A DNA stretch of 64,000 nt from a virus. The stretch lies in IMG/VR virus record IMGVR_UViG_3300008107_000003, positions 1 to 64,000 of that record; one strand, 5' to 3'. The position numbers and the translations under genes are program-made. Below are positions 5,354 to 55,710 of this stretch, piece by piece (position 1 is the first letter of the stretch; every line of letters begins with the position of its first letter). The notes beneath the pieces were generated by a model, which had not been told where the DNA came from, did no database searches, and worked only from the letters and a program-made list of their open reading frames with translations.

Positions 5354-5516
5354 TTTTACTTCCCGAATTTATAATAATTTGATCATCCAATCCATCATTA
5401 AATGATTTAACTAGATAATCTTTGATTAATCCCTCATCCATGCCCTCTAGCATGTTATTAATTTGTGTTTTAACATCTTTAAATGTTTTAACTACTAAAT
5501 TGTCCCCATCTTTCAT
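5328..5516 (-). CDS. Hypothetical acidic protein, 62 aa
   Basis: The start is placed at the ATG at 5516, because GGAGG sits 8 nt upstream of it; an earlier in-frame ATG at 5537 lacks such a site. Sequence MKDGDNLVVKTFKDVKTQIN, with an acidic middle and a Ser/Asn/Lys tail. It overlaps the end of the oxygenase-like gene by 29 bp. Confidence 0.65.
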   Translation of the reverse strand: MKDGDNLVVKTFKDVKTQINNMLEGMDEGLIKDYLVKSFNDGLDDQIIINSGSKNENSKSQQ

Positions 5517-6144
5517 GATAAGTTCCTCCAAGATCAAAATTAACTGTGGTTCTTATTCCTTCCCCTTGAGGAAGAGTACCATGAATTAACCAACTCGGAA
5601 AAATTATAATCATGCCTTTTTCTGGGAGAACATGTAATAGTCTTTTCTGAGGGTGATATAAATGACTGTAATTATCAGAGTGCATTACAAAGTATATTGG
5701 TCCTCGATTATCACTCGCACCTACAGTGTCCATTAGTGGAGATGGACCATCTGGCACCTCTGTATATATTACACAAGAAACATAATCTCTGCCATGTTCA
5801 TGAGGGGTATGATAAGAACCTTTATTTCCTGTCACCGTCCATCCAGAAATTATATTTAGTTTACTCCATTCAAATGGCAATAAACCATGATAAACTAATC
5901 GTCTTTGTATAATATCTTCATATGTTTCTTTTACAGTATTCCAATTTTTAGGTAGTTTAGGAATATAATCAGGACTCCATCCAGCAGGTGTAAAATATCT
6001 TTGAAATGATCCTCCACTTGCTGTAGTATAATCACTGTAATCTCTTGGATCTGCTTCTGAAACTATTTCTTCTAAATCTGAAACATTATCTAACTTGTCA
6101 ATAATAATCCAATTATTACCACAAGTAATCAATTCACCACTCAT
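5488..6144 (-). CDS. Putative 2OG-Fe(II) oxygenase
   Basis: 218 aa resembling the phage and marine-bacterial 2-oxoglutarate-dependent oxygenase family with a cupin fold (TIGR02466-like). Candidate iron ligands are H115 and H117 in HTPHEHGRD and H188 in WLIHGT. R198 in GIRTTVNFD is the likely 2-oxoglutarate anchor. The substrate is unknown. Its ATG overlaps the stop of the halogenase-like gene by 4 bp, so the two are translationally coupled and may act on the same molecule. Such oxygenases are frequent in cyanophages. Confidence 0.8.
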   Translation of the reverse strand: MSGELITCGNNWIIIDKLDNVSDLEEIVSEADPRDYSDYTTASGGSFQRYFTPAGWSPDYIPKLPKNWNTVKETYEDIIQRRLVYHGLLPFEWSKLNIISGWTVTGNKGSYHTPHEHGRDYVSCVIYTEVPDGPSPLMDTVGASDNRGPIYFVMHSDNYSHLYHPQKRLLHVLPEKGMIIIFPSWLIHGTLPQGEGIRTTVNFDLGGTYHERWGQFSS

Positions 6145-7604
6145 ACAGCATACTCCTGCTTATTATCAATAATTGCTTGCAATGCTTCTCTATGCGAAAC
6201 ATGTTCTGCTGCATTCATTTCTCTTTTCATAGCATTAAAATTAATTTGTATACTACTTAGAATATGATCAGGTTCATAATGTAATCTTCGTTGAGCAATT
6301 GTTGGTGGTATTAATCCTAATCCATGCATTACTTGGATCCAATTTGCTTCTCTAAACATATTATAATGATTTAAGAAATCACCCTTATCAGGATATCTAT
6401 ATTGATACATTTCTAATCGTTGTTCCAATCCTGGTGGAAGAGGTAAACTAGTAGCATACTTCCAAAATGCAGTATCGTTTCTCTTACAACGATAGTGTAA
6501 TGCAACAAAATCTAAAATGTTATCTAATAATTCTGCAAAATGATGATTGTAATAATCTTCTGCATATGTATTTCGTTTATCATAAGAATGAATAATATTT
6601 GTCAACATAAATGCTTGCTGAATACTACATCCAATAGATGTTGCTTCTAATGGTTCAATAAAACTAGCAGATAATCCGATTGCAACACAATTTTTAGACC
6701 ATGCTTTATCTAATCTACCAGGATCAAATTTAACATGTTTTGCAATTTCTAATTCTTTACCATAAAGTTCTTCAACTTCTCTGTGTGCTTCTTCTGCTGT
6801 AATAAATCTATCACAAAATACATATCCATTTCCAAATCTATTCTGTGTTGGTATTCTCCATAACCATCCGCAATCCATTGATCTTGATAGAGTAGTTGAG
6901 GGAATATCTTCTAATCTTTCTGTAGGAAATGCGATTGCTGAATTAAGAGGAAGATATTTAGAATAACTAATCCATTGAGCACCAAGAGATTTTTGATTAA
7001 TAATTCTACCAAATCCTGTACTATCAACATAGAAATCATAATAATGATGATATTTACCTAACAAATAATCTACACATCCATCTTCATCAAGTTGGACGTG
7101 TGCAATATCATCCTCAATAATTCCAATACCTCTCTTCTCGCAGAGTTTATGCAAATATTCATTTAATTTGAATGTATTAAAATGAAATTGATTTACACCA
7201 TGATAAGGTTTAATATGCAGATTATTGACTACATGATCTGGAACCAAATTATCAGATGGTTCTCCTCTTGCAATCATATCAGCAAATAAAAACTTTAATC
7301 CCGTCTGACTTTCTACTGTCAATTCTCCAGATAAAGAGTGAATATATCGTTGATTGTCACCATTCCAATTTACAAAATCAATTCCATATTTGAAAGTTGC
7401 ATCAGTTTCTTCAATTAATTCTGCAAGATTAATATTACAATGATGCATAAAGGTAGACCAATGTTCAGTAGATCCTTCACCTACACCAATAATACCAATT
7501 TTTTTAGATTCAATTAAATCGATATGAAATTTTGGATTATCTTGCTTTAAAATTAATGCTGTAACTAATCCACTTGTACCACCGCCGACAATCGCAATTT
7601 TCAT
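6141..7604 (-). CDS. Tryptophan halogenase-like flavoprotein
   Basis: 487 aa, close to the usual 500-540 of flavin-dependent tryptophan halogenases. GGGTSG (7-12) is the FAD-binding Rossmann motif. GWLWRIP (247-253) is the family signature WxWxIP, and K72 in TFKYGI fits the catalytic lysine position. E321 in IEPLEATS fits the conserved acidic residue. Such enzymes chlorinate or brominate indoles using FADH2 from a partner reductase, which is not encoded here. It overlaps both neighbours by 4 bp. The substrate in phage infection is unknown, and another flavin monooxygenase activity is possible. Confidence 0.88.
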   Translation of the reverse strand: MKIAIVGGGTSGLVTALILKQDNPKFHIDLIESKKIGIIGVGEGSTEHWSTFMHHCNINLAELIEETDATFKYGIDFVNWNGDNQRYIHSLSGELTVESQTGLKFLFADMIARGEPSDNLVPDHVVNNLHIKPYHGVNQFHFNTFKLNEYLHKLCEKRGIGIIEDDIAHVQLDEDGCVDYLLGKYHHYYDFYVDSTGFGRIINQKSLGAQWISYSKYLPLNSAIAFPTERLEDIPSTTLSRSMDCGWLWRIPTQNRFGNGYVFCDRFITAEEAHREVEELYGKELEIAKHVKFDPGRLDKAWSKNCVAIGLSASFIEPLEATSIGCSIQQAFMLTNIIHSYDKRNTYAEDYYNHHFAELLDNILDFVALHYRCKRNDTAFWKYATSLPLPPGLEQRLEMYQYRYPDKGDFLNHYNMFREANWIQVMHGLGLIPPTIAQRRLHYEPDHILSSIQINFNAMKREMNAAEHVSHREALQAIIDNKQEYAV

Positions 7605-8130: not shown

Positions 8131-8664
8131 TTAAACGTTTTGTGAAGATTGACCGTATCCAAGTATAACTTCTTCTACCATACACATAGAAGGAGTATCA
8201 ATATTTCTTCCCCCTCCATCCCAATAACCAGTATGATTTATATGAATATTGTGATTTCCTTCAGCATATGATCTAATTCTATATCCAATTTGTGATCTTT
8301 TTCCTGCACCCCAAGAAGGAACCATGTATTCTCTTTGTCCTTGTCCCTCTTGATGATGATTTGATTGTGAATGTCTACCATATTCAACATCATCAACATA
8401 AAAAATCCAATGACTAATAGAGTGAGCACTGCCATACCATCTCATATGAGCATTCATACTAAATCTAATGTGACTATCTGATCTTGAAGGTTGAAACCAT
8501 AACCAACATCCAGGAGCCCAATAATATGTATTTACAGGTCTATACCATCCATCTCTGTAGTTAACTGTCTGCCTTTGTACAACTCTAGACACAAGATATG
8601 TACCTGTTACAGTACTGCTACCAGATGCATTACCTACGCTATTTACTCTTAAAGTTGCTGACAT
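8131..8664 (-). CDS. Paralogous structural (tail/fibre) protein, copy 1
   Basis: 177 aa. First of six related proteins sharing this order: N-terminal V-D/N-x-I patch, a WxPGxxxxFxP segment, then HSISHWIFYVDDVEYGRHS, PSWG, IGYRIRSY, a YWDGGG motif and a C-terminal EE. The Trp/Tyr/Gly-rich beta composition suggests a jelly-roll receptor-binding or fibre-tip domain. There is no signal peptide. The gene order beside large structural genes supports a virion role. Not matched to a named family. Confidence 0.8.
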   Translation of the reverse strand: MSATLRVNSVGNASGSSTVTGTYLVSRVVQRQTVNYRDGWYRPVNTYYWAPGCWLWFQPSRSDSHIRFSMNAHMRWYGSAHSISHWIFYVDDVEYGRHSQSNHHQEGQGQREYMVPSWGAGKRSQIGYRIRSYAEGNHNIHINHTGYWDGGGRNIDTPSMCMVEEVILGYGQSSQNV

Positions 8665-8670
8665 AATATT

Positions 8671-9198
8671 TTATAATGGTGATGGTAAATATTCTTCTGC
8701 TCTAGCTAATACTGGGACATAAAAAGTATTTCCTCCTCCATCCCAATAATGTCTAGCATTAAAATGTACGCAATGTGGACCGTCACTGTATTGTCTTACC
8801 CAATATCCCATCGTAATTGGTTGAAGTTGATTACCAAAATCTGATACAGGTATTTGCCATTTTAGATTGTGACCATGTTCTTGGTGATCATTGCTCTCAG
8901 AATGTCTATGATATTCAACATTATTAACGTAAAATCTCCAGTGACTAATTGAGTGAGCATTTCCACCTCTCCATCCTAAAGCACAATCAAACATATAATC
9001 AATTACACTGTTAATTCTTTTTGGTGTAATTGTAATATAACTACCTGGCAAAGGTCTCCATTCATTCTGTGGATTATAGGCACCCCATTGAGTTCTCTGC
9101 TGTATTCTTTGCAAAGTCCTTCTCTGTAGTTGATTGATCGTAAGAGATGTACTACTACTGTTAGTTCTAATAGTATCAACAAATAATTGGGATGCCAT
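8671..9198 (-). CDS. Paralogous structural protein, copy 2
   Basis: 175 aa and collinear with copy 1: LFVDTIRTN at the N-terminus, AHSISHWRFYVNNVEYHRHS in the centre, MGYWVRQY and HYWDGGG near the end. The inter-gene gap is 6 bp. It differs most in the N-terminal third, where Gln/Arg repeats occur (QLQRRTLQRIQQRTQ). Likely a variant tail protein; the ligand is unknown. Confidence 0.8.
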   Translation of the reverse strand: MASQLFVDTIRTNSSSTSLTINQLQRRTLQRIQQRTQWGAYNPQNEWRPLPGSYITITPKRINSVIDYMFDCALGWRGGNAHSISHWRFYVNNVEYHRHSESNDHQEHGHNLKWQIPVSDFGNQLQPITMGYWVRQYSDGPHCVHFNARHYWDGGGNTFYVPVLARAEEYLPSPL

Positions 9199-9204
9199 TG
9201 ATTA

Positions 9205-9567
9205 TTACTCTGGTTTTGGAAACTGCTCTTTAATTTCTAATCTTTTTGCTTGAAGTTCATCAGCATATCCAGGGTTATCTTCCATAATCTTATCCCAGAG
9301 AGCAATGATTAGTTCCTCTTTAGATGGATAACGACCTGGGAGTGCTCTTTGCATTCTAACTCTTTCAAGTGCAACTTCATCTTTAATTTCTTCCCACTTT
9401 GCAGCAAGTTCTTCTTTTGATGGTTGAGGACTATCTGCTAACCATGTAATATCCTCATAGTTTGGTCCTCTAACCCCATAAGGTTGTCCTGCATAAAATC
9501 TATGCATGACCTCACCATAATCTACACCATCATCTGCAAGTGGAAAATCCATCATGTTCTCTTCCAT
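9205..9567 (-). CDS. Putative tail-fibre assembly chaperone-like protein
   Basis: 120 aa, acidic, helical. The segment DITWLADSPQPSKEELAAKW resembles the W-x-D-x-x-x-x-P-S/T-K-E-E start of phage tail assembly chaperone-like proteins, and the 11715-12215 gene has the same TWNDDPSLKPTKEEVEAEA pattern. AAGGAGG lies upstream and a late box GATAAATA precedes it. It sits between paralogous tail genes, which supports a folding helper. Name is tentative. Confidence 0.65.
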   Translation of the reverse strand: MEENMMDFPLADDGVDYGEVMHRFYAGQPYGVRGPNYEDITWLADSPQPSKEELAAKWEEIKDEVALERVRMQRALPGRYPSKEELIIALWDKIMEDNPGYADELQAKRLEIKEQFPKPE

Positions 9568-9592: not shown

Positions 9593-9600
9593 TATTTATC
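9593..9600 (-). promoter_or_regulatory. T4-type late promoter box (GATAAATA)
   Basis: Minus-strand GATAAATA, 26 bp upstream of the ATG at 9567, matching the late consensus NATAAATA. Confidence 0.5.
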
Positions 9601-10168
9601 GAATATTAATAGTTCTACCTACTCCACCACGCTCTTCATTGCCAGCAGTTCCCAACCATTCTTCAACTAAAAGATAACCAAAAGCATTTTGTCTGCTACC
9701 TGTTCCATTCCAATAGTTTGTACTATATGCGCGAACTGTATGGTTATTTTGAGAATATGATCTCATTTGATAACCAATTCTACCATTTGAAGTTCCCCAG
9801 GAAGGAACCGTCCACTTAAAAGTATTCCCTTCTTCTAAATGATTTCCAGATTCACTATGCATAAATGTAAGAATACCATTAACATAAAATTTCCAATGAC
9901 TAATTGCATGACTGGCGTTTACCCATGCACGAGGTATTCTTGCCCAGAAAAATAATCTACTATCAGCTCTTTGTGGTGTAAAATCAACAAAAGCACCAGG
10001 TAACCAAGCATAAGAATTACTTGGATTCCAATCTCCACCAGTATAATCTGCACTATATCTTTGAATACATCTTGCATTCAATTCTGAAACAGGAATAGTA
10101 TAATTCTGTAAAGATAATGGAGATTGATTAACAGTACCTAAATTTTTAAGTGTAACTCTAGATGGCAT
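9596..10168 (-). CDS. Paralogous structural protein, copy 3
   Basis: 190 aa. Shares with copies 4 and 5 the blocks YTGGDWNPSNSYAWLPGAF, HAISHWKFYVNG, PSWGTSNGRIGYQMRSYSQN and YWNGTGSRQNA. It has a C-terminal extension of about 15 residues (GNEERGGVGRTINIR) that the others lack. Long stretches of its DNA are nearly identical to copies 4 and 5, pointing to recent duplication or recombination. Probable tail-tip protein. Confidence 0.82.
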   Translation of the reverse strand: MPSRVTLKNLGTVNQSPLSLQNYTIPVSELNARCIQRYSADYTGGDWNPSNSYAWLPGAFVDFTPQRADSRLFFWARIPRAWVNASHAISHWKFYVNGILTFMHSESGNHLEEGNTFKWTVPSWGTSNGRIGYQMRSYSQNNHTVRAYSTNYWNGTGSRQNAFGYLLVEEWLGTAGNEERGGVGRTINIR

Positions 10169-10680
10169 TATGCTACCTCCCCTGAACCAAGAACTTCATC
10201 AACCATTAGTTGACCATATGCGTTTTGTCTGCTACCTGTTCCATTCCAATAGTTAGTATCATACCATCTTAAAGTATGATTATTTGTAGCATATGCTCTA
10301 ATTTGGCATCCTATTCTAGCATTAAATGTTCCCCATGAAGGAACTTCCCACATATATGTATCTCCATCTTCCAGATGAGTTCCAGCTGCAGAATGATACT
10401 TGAATAATCTACCATTAGCATAAAATTGCAAATGACAAATCGCATTACTAGCATTTACCCAGGCACGAGGAGCTCTCCAAGCATATTGAATTAAACTATC
10501 AGATCTTTGAGGTGTGAAATCTACAAAAGATCCTGGCACCCAAGCATATGATGTACTAGGATTCCAAGAACCTCCAGTATAAACAGATTGATATCTTTGC
10601 AAATATCGATTATTATACAATTCTTTTACAGGAATTGTAATATTACTAGCAAGATTTGTAATTCTATCTACAGAAATCAT
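10168..10680 (-). CDS. Paralogous structural protein, copy 4
   Basis: 170 aa from the ATG at 10680 (MISVDRITNLASNITIPVKE); earlier in-frame codons overlap copy 5. It has YTGGSWNPSTSYAWVPGSF, NARIGCQIRAYATNNHTLRW and YWNGTGSRQNAYG. The stop shares a base with the start of copy 3. It differs from the other copies by a Cys in the IGCQ block. Confidence 0.82.
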   Translation of the reverse strand: MISVDRITNLASNITIPVKELYNNRYLQRYQSVYTGGSWNPSTSYAWVPGSFVDFTPQRSDSLIQYAWRAPRAWVNASNAICHLQFYANGRLFKYHSAAGTHLEDGDTYMWEVPSWGTFNARIGCQIRAYATNNHTLRWYDTNYWNGTGSRQNAYGQLMVDEVLGSGEVA

Positions 10681-10688
10681 GATTACAC

Positions 10689-11198
10689 CTACGATGCTAA
10701 GTATTCTTGAATATAAGTTTGACCATAACAATTTTGGTTGCTGCCGCCGCCTTCCCAATACTGAGTAGAATAAACTCCTACTTCATGGTTATTTTGAGAA
10801 TACATTCTCATTTGATAACCAATTCTACCATTTGAAGTTCCCCATGATGCAAAGTCCCACACATATGTAGCACGATGCTCTTTATGATGTCCACTAATCG
10901 AATGCCTGCCTTGTTCTGTGCTTCCATTTGAATAAAATATCCAATGACTAATTGAATGAGCATTTCCTGCCCATCTTGCAACAGGAAGTGTCCAGTAACA
11001 TCTTATTCTAGATGATGCTGATAATGGAGTATAATCAACAAATGCTCCAGGAACCCAAGCATAGTTATTATTATTTCTCCATCCACCACCAGTATAGGTA
11101 CTTCTAGTTTCACGAAGAATTCTTCTCCTCAACTGATCCAAAGAAAGAGGATCAAGATTAGGATCTGGACTAATAGTATCGGTAACAAGTGTACTCAT
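10689..11198 (-). CDS. Paralogous structural protein, copy 5
   Basis: 169 aa with YTGGGWRNNNNYAWVPGAF, AHSISHWIFYSNG, HSISGHHKEH, SWGTSNGRIGYQMRMYSQN and YWEGGGSNQNCYG. The centre is closest to copy 3 and the His-rich loop is closest to copies 1 and 2, so the copies are mosaic. The ATG overlaps the stop of copy 6 by 4 bp. Confidence 0.82.
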   Translation of the reverse strand: MSTLVTDTISPDPNLDPLSLDQLRRRILRETRSTYTGGGWRNNNNYAWVPGAFVDYTPLSASSRIRCYWTLPVARWAGNAHSISHWIFYSNGSTEQGRHSISGHHKEHRATYVWDFASWGTSNGRIGYQMRMYSQNNHEVGVYSTQYWEGGGSNQNCYGQTYIQEYLAS

Positions 11199-11704
11199 GT
11201 TGGTAAATACTCCTCGATTGTCATTAAAGCTCTACAAAATTGAACAGATCCACCACCATCCCAATATCCAGTAGAGTGTAGTCGATTACGATTACTATTT
11301 CCATACCATCTCATTTGATATCCAATTCTTTGTGTTCCACTGTGCCAAGGAACATCCCACATATAACAATGTCTAGTTTCATAGTTTTGAGAAGATATAC
11401 AATGTCTACCTCTTTCTACAGAACCACCTTGAGTATAGAAAATACAATGCATAATATTATGACCATCAATATAACCTACAGAAAAATTACAAGTAACTCT
11501 AGCTCTTACGTTCTCAGAAGATGCTCCAAAAAATGCGTAGTCCCACCATAATCCAGGAGCCCATCCGTAGTTTGTACCAGGATCCCAAGTACCACCAGTA
11601 TATTCTTGATATACTGTTCTAATAATCCTACCTCGTAATTGTGCTGTAGGAATTGCAACTGTAAGATCTGAAGTTGCTATTGTATCAACCCTAAGGTTAC
11701 TCAT
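11195..11704 (-). CDS. Paralogous structural protein, copy 6
   Basis: 169 aa, the most diverged of the first subfamily: YTGGTWDPGTNYGWAPGLW, IMHCIFYTQGG, RHCISSQNYE, QRIGYQMRWYGNSN and STGYWDGGGSVQ. It has extra cysteines in place of Ser or Trp positions. It sits next to the tail-assembly-chaperone-like gene and starts 11 bp after that gene's stop. Confidence 0.8.
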   Translation of the reverse strand: MSNLRVDTIATSDLTVAIPTAQLRGRIIRTVYQEYTGGTWDPGTNYGWAPGLWWDYAFFGASSENVRARVTCNFSVGYIDGHNIMHCIFYTQGGSVERGRHCISSQNYETRHCYMWDVPWHSGTQRIGYQMRWYGNSNRNRLHSTGYWDGGGSVQFCRALMTIEEYLPT

Positions 11705-11714
11705 ATTTAACCTC

Positions 11715-12215
11715 CTAACCTAAATCAGGTCCAGTAAGATCTTGCCTTTCTCCAGGTTGAGGTGAAGCTTCAGGTTTTGTTGGCCATGGAACATTTTTTA
11801 AAACCCCATCTTGAAGAACAGGATTGATATCCAAATCAGTAATATCTCTAAGAGCCTGCATATAATCTACCCATTCTTGAGGAACTGGTTCATTTCTACT
11901 CATAGAGCGAATAATAATCCAATCACATTCCTTAAGTTTTGCATTACGAACTCTTCTAACTGCTTGCATTGGTGCTAGTTTTTGAAGTCTAACAGCCTCT
12001 GCTTCTACTTCTTCTTTTGTTGGTTTTAAAGATGGATCATCATTCCAAGTCAGTCCTTCCCAATCTTCTCCAACTAAACTCCACGCACAACTTGGACGAA
12101 GAGAAATAATAGCTGCAGCAAGATCAGGTTTTGAATATGCGTATTTTGTTTCTTCTAATGTATAATTTGGAGCAGATGATTTTTCTGCATCTCTTACATC
12201 AATTTCTTCCGCCAT
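11715..12215 (-). CDS. Phage tail assembly chaperone-like protein
   Basis: 166 aa from the ATG at 12215, which has GGAG 6 nt upstream. The C-terminal region carries the pattern of the Phage_tail_APC family: RVRNAKLKECDWIIIRSMSR, then PQEWVDYMQALRDI. The N-terminal part has LTWNDDPSLKPTKEEVEAEA and the end is Pro/Gly-rich (QPGERQDLTGPDLG). It presumably assists folding of the flanking fibre proteins. A late box CATAAATA lies about 22 bp upstream. Confidence 0.8.
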   Translation of the reverse strand: MAEEIDVRDAEKSSAPNYTLEETKYAYSKPDLAAAIISLRPSCAWSLVGEDWEGLTWNDDPSLKPTKEEVEAEAVRLQKLAPMQAVRRVRNAKLKECDWIIIRSMSRNEPVPQEWVDYMQALRDITDLDINPVLQDGVLKNVPWPTKPEASPQPGERQDLTGPDLG

Positions 12216-12236: not shown

Positions 12237-12244
12237 TATTTATG
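12237..12244 (-). promoter_or_regulatory. T4-type late promoter box (CATAAATA)
   Basis: Minus-strand CATAAATA about 22 bp before the ATG at 12215; it overlaps the end of the next upstream gene. Confidence 0.5.
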
Positions 12245-12887
12245 CCTGAGGATATGCCCATTCTTCAACTAATCCGAAACTGACACCTTGTTCATAACTA
12301 TCTCCTCCATTTTGATAGTTTGACCAAGTTGCATTTAAAACAAATCCATCATCTCTGTTATTTGCGTTCTTAACCCAAGGTGTATAAGTAACAGGATTTA
12401 AAGTTTGTGGACGATCCCACCAACCAAAAACTACATTAATTGGTGTACTGTCTGTATTATTATCATAGTGCAGAACAGCAACACCATTAGAATTCAACCA
12501 TGTATCATATAATCCTGCTTCTGGAATTTGTTGTAATGCTTGACCTCCAGAAATTGAGTTATTGTTTCTAGCAACTCCCATAGTATTATCCCAGGATGCT
12601 TCGCAAAAAATATTGTATTCAATATAAAACCAACTGTTGATTGATTTTGGCTGCACTACAATTTCTAATGGTTCTAGTAATGTAGCTTGTGTTTGTGTGG
12701 GTCTAATAATGTTATTTTCTGGTCCTGGTCTTCTATCGTTGTTTTGTACACGATAATATACTCTATCCATAGAAACTTTATAACGTACCTGTACAACAGA
12801 CCCAGGCATGTATAGTGATGATGGAGAATTAATGAATACTGTAGAACTAGTATTCCCTTGAATTGTATTTACTTTTAATTGGCTCAT
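12240..12887 (-). CDS. Second-subfamily structural paralogue A
   Basis: 215 aa from the ATG at 12887 (MSQLKVNTIQGNTSSTVFIN); earlier frame overlaps the next gene. It shares with the two following genes an N-terminal PGSVVQV/YxVxxR patch, a VQPKSINSWFYIEY block (others: ITPKYSNSTI), a YDNNTDSTPINVVFGWWDRP block and a C-terminal YEQGVSFGLVEEW. Beta-rich. Inferred virion protein. Confidence 0.78.
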   Translation of the reverse strand: MSQLKVNTIQGNTSSTVFINSPSSLYMPGSVVQVRYKVSMDRVYYRVQNNDRRPGPENNIIRPTQTQATLLEPLEIVVQPKSINSWFYIEYNIFCEASWDNTMGVARNNNSISGGQALQQIPEAGLYDTWLNSNGVAVLHYDNNTDSTPINVVFGWWDRPQTLNPVTYTPWVKNANNRDDGFVLNATWSNYQNGGDSYEQGVSFGLVEEWAYPQA

Positions 12888-12889
12888 GA

Positions 12890-13456
12890 TTAGTAATCTG
12901 CAGAAATTTCCCAAGCAAATCCATAACTAATTCCTATTTCATGGTTTCCAGTACCAGTGCTACCAGATGTTCTATTAAAGAAATAAGTATAGTTGCTACC
13001 ATTAGATGATCTAACAGCAACATCATAAGTTTGTGCGGATGTTGCTCCAGGACGATCATACCAATCAACAGTATGAAGATGAGGTGTGCTATCTACGTTT
13101 TGATCATACAAACAAGTTGTAATACAACTATGTCTAGCATTTCCTCTTTGTGTATTATATCCTATAAGACCATTATTTCTACGAACAAGAAATACGACAT
13201 TCTCATTCCCTTCTCCATGAAGCATCCATCTCAATCTAATGGTGCTATTTGAATATTTTGGAGTAATTACTAATCTTACATCAGTGAGTGGATTACCATC
13301 TCCACTATTACTAGCAGAATATGTAGTTCTATTATCACTTCTAACATACCAATGATTAATATATGTATTTGGAGCTCTTAATGTGTGCCCTGACTGCATC
13401 GAAAGAGTGTTTCCTGTTGCAGGAGCAATAGATCCAACAGTTATTGTTCTTGGCAT
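12890..13456 (-). CDS. Second-subfamily structural paralogue B
   Basis: 188 aa: PRTITVGSIAPATGNT, ITPKYSNSTIRLRW, IGYNTQRGNARHS, YDQNVDSTPHLHTVDWYDRP and a C-terminal NHEIGISYGFAWE. It has the same domain layout as paralogues A and C. It starts at the base that ends paralogue C (TAATG-type overlap). Probable tail or fibre protein. Confidence 0.78.
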   Translation of the reverse strand: MPRTITVGSIAPATGNTLSMQSGHTLRAPNTYINHWYVRSDNRTTYSASNSGDGNPLTDVRLVITPKYSNSTIRLRWMLHGEGNENVVFLVRRNNGLIGYNTQRGNARHSCITTCLYDQNVDSTPHLHTVDWYDRPGATSAQTYDVAVRSSNGSNYTYFFNRTSGSTGTGNHEIGISYGFAWEISADY

Positions 13457-14034
13457 TATCTTGCAATCTCCCTTAATACAAACATACTGACACCTTTTTC
13501 ATAATCCCCCCAATAGTTATTCCATGATTTATTTACACGAATACTATCATTACTATTACTTGCATATCTAGCACCAATACCGTATGTATAAGTAGAAGTT
13601 CCACCAGGACGATCTACAAATTTAATATGCAACCAATCTGGTGTACTACTCCTATCTTGATCATAACGTGCTCCAGTAACTCCACTATATTGAACGTTAC
13701 CAACGGCCGTATTATATCCTATATATCCAGCTGTATTGGTGATAGATCCATTTCTTAAAATTTGAAATGTAATATCATTGGAAGATTCATAAAATAAAAA
13801 TATGTCCATCCATATTTCACTATCACTATATTTTGGTGTGATAGCAGTATTTAATATTGATATTTCTCTACTTACGTTGTCAGCATTAGTTGCATATGTA
13901 GCAATAACATCCGTCATGTTCCAAACACATTGAATAACTGTGCCTGGAACTTTCATTAGAGTTCCAGCAGCAACTCCAATAACATAATCGTTTTCTGCTC
14001 TTCCGATTAATTCATCAACAATTACTGTACTCAT
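13456..14034 (-). CDS. Second-subfamily structural paralogue C
   Basis: 192 aa: STVIVDELIGRAENDYVIG, PGTVIQCVW, ITPKYSDSEIWMDIF, IGYNTAVGNVQYSG, YDQDRSSTPDWLHIKFVDRP and YEKGVSMFVLRE. Paralogous to A and B. Its ATG overlaps the stop of the following fibre-like gene by 4 bp. Confidence 0.78.
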   Translation of the reverse strand: MSTVIVDELIGRAENDYVIGVAAGTLMKVPGTVIQCVWNMTDVIATYATNADNVSREISILNTAITPKYSDSEIWMDIFLFYESSNDITFQILRNGSITNTAGYIGYNTAVGNVQYSGVTGARYDQDRSSTPDWLHIKFVDRPGGTSTYTYGIGARYASNSNDSIRVNKSWNNYWGDYEKGVSMFVLREIAR

Positions 14035-14659: not shown

Positions 14660-17600
14660 ATAATGGTAGTTCTCTAATGTGAATTGTATCCCTAGCAGAA
14701 GGAATATGAGTACCAGTGAATACAACGTTTGTGCCCGAAACATTATAATGAGTAGCAGGTATTTGAAGAACACCATTTAAGAATACAAGAACACTGCTGG
14801 AAGTATGTGCTGTTAATGCTGTTAAAGCAAATGTTGTTGTAGTACCATTACCAGTATAGTTACGAGAAACATATTTACCACTTAATCCATAAGTACCAGT
14901 TACACTTAAATTACCTGTAGCATTTAAGTTACCACCAACATTTAATTTAGCCGTTGATATTGGAGCGGCGCCAATGCCAACGTTTGTGGTCGTTGATAAA
15001 GCATCAGCAGTAATGGCAAAGTTACGAAGATCAAATACTTTAGTATTAGTTAAACCAAACTGATACCATGTGGTTCCATAATATAACCAACCCAAGTTTC
15101 TGCCATATCCAGTTGTAGTACTAGTTGGATCCCAGCTGGTATTCCAAATAATATCTCCGTTACTTGGAGTTGTATAATATGTTGGCAATACAGGGTTTCC
15201 AGAAGTGTTGGTTGGAGCAATTAAGGTTCCTTTAAGAACTGTACCATCGTTATTAGAATAAGTAATCTTCTTAGCTTGGAATTCTTGATCTGAAGTAACT
15301 TTTGATTGGAAAGTAACAGGACCAGAGAATAATGATTCTAAGGAGTTACTATCACCACCAATAACAGTTAGTTTATCAGTAAGAACAAGTTCAGAGAATG
15401 TCTGAATGGTAGTTCCTTCTTCACCTACAACATTTAACTGTGCAATGTCACTAGAAGTAATTTGACCTGTAACTGGGTTAATAACTTGGTTACCAATGAA
15501 TAGGTCACCATTTGAGTTTAGACCAGAATAGAATGAAACTCCAGCTGCCTCCTTCAAACACTGAGCATATTTAACTTGATCAAAGGTAAGAACTTCAATC
15601 TGTGTTTGTGGGAATGCAGTTGAGTAGTTACCAGGACCAAATCCAACATATTCAAAGGTATGGTTACCAGAACGTTGAATAGAGTGACGACGAAGTTCAA
15701 TTAGTAGATCGACTACTGTACTTCCTTGTAATTTAAGTGGAATTTTTCTTGTCTCTGCATCGCCTGCATATGCAGTAACTGTAGTTGTTCCAAGTTTATT
15801 TAACGTTGACGTATATCCTAAGGCATTACTTGTCTCTGCAAGGAAAAATTCTACTGCTTCTTTAGTAATACTACGCTTAGAATCAACGGTTGTTCCATCA
15901 GATGTAGCACTTACTGCTCCAATAGTTACATTATCAGCAATTGAAATTGCTGCTAATGGATCTGCTTGAGGATTATCTCTATCAAATGCAGGATAAACTT
16001 CATTCACATTTTGTGAAAACTTGTAATCACTATAATTTGATGTTGTTGGAGAAATTGACGCACATAATACTGTTAGATAGAAAATACCATCTTGTACATC
16101 AGAAATAAAAGGTTGAATTTTTTCAGACTCATAAACGTAAAATACTTTATTATAATCTGAAGCTGTTCCCTGTCTAGGTTGAATAACATATCCAGTCAAA
16201 GGATCTCTAGGCAGTGGTTTAGCACCTTTAGGAATAACATATCTAAATCTATAAATTCTGTCCTTCAGTGTTCTTGCGTCAGAAATTCTCTTAATGAATG
16301 CTGAAGGCGTAAAGTTCAAGTTATTATAAATTGTACTTGTATTCAGTTCAGTATAAATTGTATTTGTAGCACCTTGAACACACTGAATATACCATCCACC
16401 AACAACGTTACCTAGTCCAGAAATATTATAAACTGTACTATCATATTTGATTGGACTATTTGTTTGTCCTGCTGTAGTTCCTGTTACTAGTCCAGTATTA
16501 TTGGATGGAGAAATTCTTGCTTCTCGAATAATATTACCTGTCGTTGTCTGAAGATTACAGAATAATCTATCAGGTAAAGACTGCGTTGTATCATATCTAG
16601 CACCAATTTGATAACCTTGTGCTTTAACAGGAGGAGCAGTTGAAGCATTAGTATATCCATATAGATATAATCTTGCACCAGTTCCAGATGCTCCACCTAA
16701 AGCACCAACATGTTTTGTTCTCTTAACATCAATATTTACCCAGTTAATAGAAATCTCAGTACCAAATGTAATATAACCACTTACTGTTGAAGCATTAGCA
16801 ACTGAAAGAGTAATTACTGTACCATTAATTGCAGATACTGTAGCATTTGTTCCTATTCCATTACCACTAACTGCTTGTCCTTGAACAATACCATTATTAT
16901 TAGCAACAGTAATTGTAAATTGTCCTGATGTACCAGTTGCAGTAGTACTTACAACATCTAATTGTTTTGGAGGAATGACATGTGTAAATGTTCCTGCTTT
17001 ATCTTTAGTAAAGGCAGCTGCTTTAAATCCTCTACATCTCAATGCTGTACTACCAAAGTTAGAGTTACTGTTAGTGATCGACATGTCAGCACCACTATCA
17101 GCAAAGAAGTGATCACCATATGCAACAGCGAACACCGAAACGACCTGAATAAAAGCATCATTAGCAGCTTTAATGTGGCAATGTCGCCACCCCTGTTTAT
17201 ATCGACATGCACCATCTAAGTGAGAACCTGATCCACCGTCATCATATGTTTTAGTAACTGAATTATATCTTACAAAAGCTCTATCATCTTTCTGCAGAGA
17301 TAGTCCCGTAAACTGTGCAACAACCATAGATTTAAAACCAGTTGTTCTAAATCCATCAGCATTCATACCATTCAATCCCCAAACAGATCGCAATGAACAG
17401 TTGAAGATATATGGTGAAGCACTGTCTACAGTATCAATTTCAACCTTTGCAAGAATATTTGTACCAATAGCATTACCAGACGGTTCAGATGCCATCTGAT
17501 AAGTGAATAATGAACCTTGTGCCGAAGTAACTTGGAATGATCCATTATACAATGCAGCATCAAGATCTGATTGCGGTCCTGTAGATCCAATAACACCACT

Positions 17601-48830: not shown

Positions 48831-48987
48831 AATCGTTAAAAGAATAGTAAGACCATCAGGGAAATGGTGGAGATACTATGCTCCCTGCACCCTCAGCAGG
48901 GATATGAGAGACGTGATTTATACACCCTAGAGGTCTCGGTTTTCGGGGTGTTCGGAACGTTAAGAAATGTTTCGTTTCCTTAACACT
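48831..48987 (-). promoter_or_regulatory. Structured psbA 5' leader
   Basis: About 155 nt of untranslated leader. Stem-loops visible on the minus strand include GTTAAGGAAA / TTTCTTAAC, CACCC / GGGTG and CCCTG / CAGGG. A second late-like box TATAAATC occurs within it (near 48917-48924). It could govern stability or translation. No gene is seen in it. Confidence 0.55.
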
Positions 48988-55490: not shown

Positions 55491-55710
55491 AGAAGGGGAA
55501 GGTCAATCCCCCGTGAGCAGGCTCGCCACCTATTTAGTTATCGAGGAAATAGGAAACTCGGCGGGAGATAAATCCCCATCCGCACCACTTGCTTTTTAAG
55601 GAAGCAAGAAACCTAAAAGGGAACCGTCCCGACCAGGGCGCTTTTAGTGTCATCCCGAGACAAGTAGGGTCATTGACTCCACCAGTGCTGTTATAGTCCA
55701 TCCGTGACTA
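55491..55710 (-). other. 220-bp tRNA spacer with hairpins, no clear gene
   Basis: Contains a CTTGCTT/AAGCAAG hairpin (55588-55608) and several GC-rich inverted repeats. A 39-codon frame exists on the minus strand but has no RBS. No tRNA T-arm is found. It may hold a small RNA. Confidence 0.45.

Follow-up and report, generated by a model that had tools for sequence, protein, structure and literature searches.

Array layout and predicted fold

Do neighbouring tail-fibre genes of a single phage genome exchange DNA with one another, and does such exchange reshuffle the tail tips or make them more alike? The question is raised by a run of paralogous genes in the stretch of DNA analysed here (the window), which comprises 64,000 nt of the 176,692-base virus record IMGVR_UViG_3300008107_000003. 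Over the part searched, the record's tail fibre and that of Synechococcus phage S-CREM1 are 78% identical; a homologue of UvsY (5e-45) is also encoded, together with a single RecA-fold protein that is presumably UvsX, and these features mark the source phage, a freshwater cyanophage, as T4-like. Minus-strand transcription runs from the long tail-fibre genes (phrog_692, 693 and 529) through genes I, H and G, a PF16778 chaperone, genes F, E, D and C, an XkdW-like gene and genes B and A, followed by a methyltransferase-like gene, a tryptophan halogenase and a 2OG-Fe(II) oxygenase. With phrog_529, phrog_693 and Phage_tail_APC as neighbours, the jelly-roll genes belong to the tail-fibre gene cluster, in which the relevant features are:

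13456..14034, minus strand: gene I, jelly-roll tail-fibre protein of the upstream trio (phrog_6942 tail fiber, E 5e-12), homologous to H
12890..13456, minus strand: gene H, jelly-roll tail-fibre protein of the upstream trio (phrog_6942, E 4e-16; AF2 pLDDT 69; predicted TNF/C1q-like fold, Z up to 13)
12240..12887, minus strand: gene G, jelly-roll tail-fibre protein of the upstream trio (phrog_6942, E 8e-9)
11715..12215, minus strand: tail-fibre assembly chaperone Phage_tail_APC (PF16778, 54.4 bits against a cut-off of 26.6; phrog_4912 tail fiber assembly)
11195..11704, minus strand: gene F, array position 1 (positional clade F, 100/98 in the tree)
10689..11198, minus strand: gene E, array position 2, carries one copy of the C/E tract (from tree and tract)
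10168..10680, minus strand: gene D, array position 3 (clusters with gene C from its own genome; allele 10% different in lineage L014)
9596..10168, minus strand: gene C, array position 4 (AF2 pLDDT 82; predicted TNF-like lectin fold, Z 11.6)
9205..9567, minus strand: XkdW-like small protein between C and B, probable second tail-fibre chaperone (PF09636, E 4e-4, below cut-off; phrog_9114, E 1.5e-7)
8671..9198, minus strand: gene B, array position 5 (clade B, 100/98)
8131..8664, minus strand: gene A, array position 6 (clade A, 96/86)

The two chaperone-like genes (9205-9567 and 11715-12215, both minus strand) are weakly similar to each other and split the nine jelly-roll genes 3 + 4 + 2. Directly downstream of the array lie the tryptophan halogenase (6141-7604, minus strand; PF04820, E 5e-100) and the 2OG-Fe(II) oxygenase (5488-6144, minus strand); S-CREM1 likewise has a halogenase and oxygenases near its tail-fibre genes, and similar ORFs are present in contig lineage L004. 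The window also contains PhotoRC-II and wcaG RNA motifs (48868-48962 and 55515-55616, both minus strand and above the Rfam gathering score) and twelve tRNA matches. A search for tandem repeats found none.

Structure prediction, performed on single chains, gave a confident TNF/C1q-like jelly roll for gene C, the closest folds being trimeric sugar-binding lectins (PLTL, Z as listed above, and BC2L-C) and Chlamydia Pgp3, with C1q heads at Z about 9; gene H is predicted to have the same fold at lower confidence (Z 11.8 to PLTL). Genes A-F are an old tandem family of tail-tip proteins with a predicted TNF/C1q-like jelly roll, and every member keeps a conserved position of its own.

Conservation of the array in other lineages

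Scans of IMG/VR recovered ten other contig lineages in which the array recurs with its order unchanged (F, E, D, C, XkdW-like gene, B, A). Nine have the full set of six genes, although in L022 the contig end truncates A, and the tenth, L014, stops at the start of gene C. In a tree of 63 domains the sequences cluster by position and not by phage, F, B and A forming single clades and C, D and E nearly so, which indicates a long separate history for each gene, so that exchange becomes visible as a departure from this pattern. In one lineage, L016 (5646-11874), five of the six array genes have long C-terminal extensions, giving proteins of 280-568 aa versus about 170.

Synechococcus phage S-WAM2 resembles the window in having three tandem tail fibre genes with H-like matches (gp159-161) after the long tail fibre, and H-like places number three each in S-WAM2 and ACG-2014j; it differs in that relatives of A-F were not found, the phages collection giving no tblastn match to these genes in any named phage. 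A DNA-level search with the array region also returned no match, and a C-only profile found no relative in genome_contigs. A single-family profile spanning all six positions was too diverse for some of the collection scans.

Matching blocks within the window

The first-pass annotation proposed that near-identical blocks are shared between copies whose flanks differ strongly. This is borne out once the copies are aligned in register, the coordinates it gave being 7-8 nt off: taken literally, 9690-9724 matches 10219-10253 at 13/35 sites and 9752-9810 matches 10789-10847 at 19/59, while the corrected offsets between copies are 536 (C/D) and 1045 (C/E). The blocks so placed are:

9687..9718, minus strand: C/D exact 32-nt block, C copy, carrying the conserved TNYWNGTGSRQN motif
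10223..10254, minus strand: C/D exact 32-nt block, D copy, identical to 9687-9718
9740..9802, minus strand: C/E near-identical tract, C copy (59/63 nt, 17/18 silent codons)
10785..10847, minus strand: C/E near-identical tract, E copy (same counts)

The C/E tract contains exact runs of 18 and 39 nt. Matches in the flanks are 48/80 and 35/80 for C/E, and 41/98 and 71/101 for C/D. Sliding identity for C/E peaks at 0.93 in the block and stands at 0.5-0.65 around it, with C/D more even, so the uniform divergence along the pairs that would speak against recombination is not what was found.

Such likeness could arise with no exchange at all, if strongly selected protein motifs and an AT-biased codon usage made the DNA alike. 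For the C/D block of the window this is largely what we see. A SWGTxxGRIGYQxRxY segment is kept in C-F of all the phages, and silent identity within the block is ordinary (9/12 codons inside versus 51/82 outside; local p 0.62), so that we reject it as a conversion tract in this genome and regard it as mainly a conserved protein motif, as its silent sites suggest. The C/E block is also well conserved as protein, with 57-86% amino-acid identity in nine other genomes, but its silent codons are identical well beyond the 10.1 of 18 expected from codon bias (binomial p 0.0005, for a block chosen for looking identical). Given the amino acids and the phage's codon usage, the p-value for this pair in the window is about 0.008, and a within-pair shuffle of silent codons gives 0.042, with 15 pairs tested and uncorrected. 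The excess is confined to the window lineage, as the same columns in nine other genomes have 5-10 of 11-17 silent codons identical. On these p-values the window's own C/E case is good but not overwhelming. Comparison with L014, which shares 98.4% identity with the window over 7 kb, points the same way: of the SNPs in gene E, all five that fall inside the block bring the window's E into agreement with C, versus 4/11 of those outside (one-sided Fisher, calculated by hand, about 0.03). Third positions by themselves offer too few sites, and 3SEQ-like tests restricted to them were not significant.

Probable conversion tracts across genomes

Near-identical runs exceeding a codon-usage null (p<0.01), which conditions on the amino acids and on each phage's codon usage, were found in 11/135 within-genome pairs versus 9/600 between-genome pairs (Fisher 2e-4, the pairs sharing genes and so being non-independent). 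Across nine lineages, C and D of one genome have a higher corrected silent identity than C and D taken from different genomes (permutation p 0.0026), with a weaker excess for D/E (0.034) and none for the other pairs among the seven tested by permutation; C/E has no general excess across genomes (p 0.86). The process shows most plainly in a C/D tract of about 100 bp (columns 164-199) in which silent codons are identical at 26/27 in L020, 24/28 in L021 and 25/28 in L023. The close relative L022, whose C and D are about 81% identical to those of L021, is without the tract (10/25). L020 additionally has an E/F tract with 13/15 silent codons identical. The array thus carries patches with a local silent-site excess, an excess found within but not between genomes, and a lineage-specific distribution that includes absence from a close relative, as expected of gene conversion. 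Similarity without exchange is contradicted for the C/D tracts of L020, L021 and L023, and as a general explanation we consider it unlikely.

Although every relative is a metagenome assembly, a chimera built from similar copies is extremely improbable, since two assemblies of the window's phage agree (the independent 53-kb contig L001 has 2 differences over 12.6 kb, both outside the array), L021 and L023 have the same tract on separate contigs, and the copies, at 50-65% protein identity, differ too much along most of their length for assemblers to mistake one for another.

Gene D: possible homogenisation, replacement and import

The window's gene D departs from the positional pattern. It groups with C of the same phage (100/96), the D genes of the window and L014 both falling inside the C clade, and the C profile outscores the D profile over the whole gene; in a protein-level scan for profile jumps, a whole-gene preference for another position was found only in these two D genes, and the window's E has an F-like segment (p 0.06). 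A copy of C may accordingly have replaced the old D in the window, with later uneven divergence leaving the blocks. Against this, a single D clade is not rejected by the AU test (p 0.06), and when the window's C is removed from the tree the placement of its D is no longer settled, implying an affinity to that C itself, as homogenisation predicts; the C/E block, moreover, would be left unexplained. Both old repeated homogenisation and an old replacement fit the whole-length likeness of C and D in the window, but that duplication produced the mosaic as a whole seems improbable to us.

A different event separates gene D of the window from that of L014, the two alleles differing at 52/513 sites (10%) while gene F differs at 1/510. 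No in-genome paralogue fits as the donor of the divergent L014 allele (for C, 16 versus 18). A diversity-generating retroelement was likewise rejected, as differences are of all types and 30/44 changed codons are synonymous, in place of adenine-specific and mostly non-synonymous change. The difference between these near-identical phages is most likely a separate process, recombination with a diverged allele from another phage, and allelic exchange at the same position very likely does act on D. That it made the mosaic by itself is very improbable: it cannot alone account for the silent-site likeness of C and E within one genome, and as sole cause it is refuted by tracts common only to paralogues of one genome. 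Elsewhere in the window, ten SNPs relative to L014 lie within 34 bp (16524-16557) of a 1306-aa tail fibre, in an otherwise quiet region, and are perhaps a small imported patch.

Proposed mechanism and relation to known systems

We conclude that gene conversion between array copies, partly homogenising conserved jelly-roll segments, is the probable origin of the tracts, with import into D a separate process. The recombination between copies suggested by the first-pass annotation is upheld most strongly by the C/D tracts of L020, L021 and L023 and the E/F tract of L020, and in the window by the C/E block, though not by C/D in the window, the first of its examples. The DNA of the array genes is similar enough for occasional ectopic recombination, in which strand invasion, probably driven by UvsX/UvsY (from gene content and T4) during replication or break repair, would use a neighbouring copy as the repair template. 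The outcome would be patches of about 50-130 bp, presumably non-reciprocal, which for the most part link adjacent copies and lie in the final third of the domain; in the window, transfer may have gone either from C to E or from E to C.

The proposed purpose, reshuffling of tail tips, fares less well. Columns of the C/E tract are better conserved (2.84 bits) than the rest of the domain (2.35), those of the C/D and E/F tracts having 2.49 and 2.50, respectively; the tracts make copies more alike, positional identity is kept, and the variation of D in L014 has no in-genome source. Since the C/E columns are better conserved than the rest, the effect would be to keep structural segments alike, a partial homogenisation, and not to reshuffle receptor loops.

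Tetart, Desplats and Krisch reportedly described in 1998 that distal tail-fibre genes of T-even phages recombine at conserved gene segments between different phages, swapping adhesin specificity. The similarity lies in T4-like phages recombining at conserved segments of tail-fibre genes, and the difference in the partners, which are different phages there and paralogues of one genome here, with a homogenising result. Metaviromic islands of marine phages include C1q-like and carbohydrate-binding receptor-binding proteins (PMC3909814), and host-recognition genes of C1q-like type are known to vary between phages that are near-identical elsewhere (PMC3909814, PMC7468147). The islands (PMC3909814) share with the window jelly-roll host-recognition proteins near the tail fibre, as well as XkdW, tail-fibre assembly and Fe(II) oxygenase genes, but their host-recognition genes are single, variable and under-recruiting, whereas here a six-paralogue array of fixed order undergoes exchange between copies. 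Myocyanophage Pam3 offers a TNF-like distal domain in a freshwater cyanophage fibre (gp24) with a dedicated assembly chaperone (gp25), but as one homotrimeric fibre gene in place of many paralogues (PMC9608196). Our literature search, with subscription journals mostly outside its reach, found no title or abstract reporting gene conversion among phage tail paralogues.

The array offers a concrete example of ectopic conversion between paralogous receptor-binding genes inside one phage genome, with a close relative serving as control, and it sets apart two processes often merged as tail-fibre mosaicism, namely homogenisation between copies and import of diverged alleles. The fixed order of the six genes also raises the question of why all six are retained. 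A tentative and, in our estimation, unlikely possibility is that each of A-F supplies a dedicated chain, not exchangeable for the others, to one or more heteromeric tips, much as C1q is built from A, B and C chains; gene conversion would then keep a shared packing surface matched between chains while receptor loops diverge, and if true, this would be concerted evolution of a heteromeric phage adhesin.
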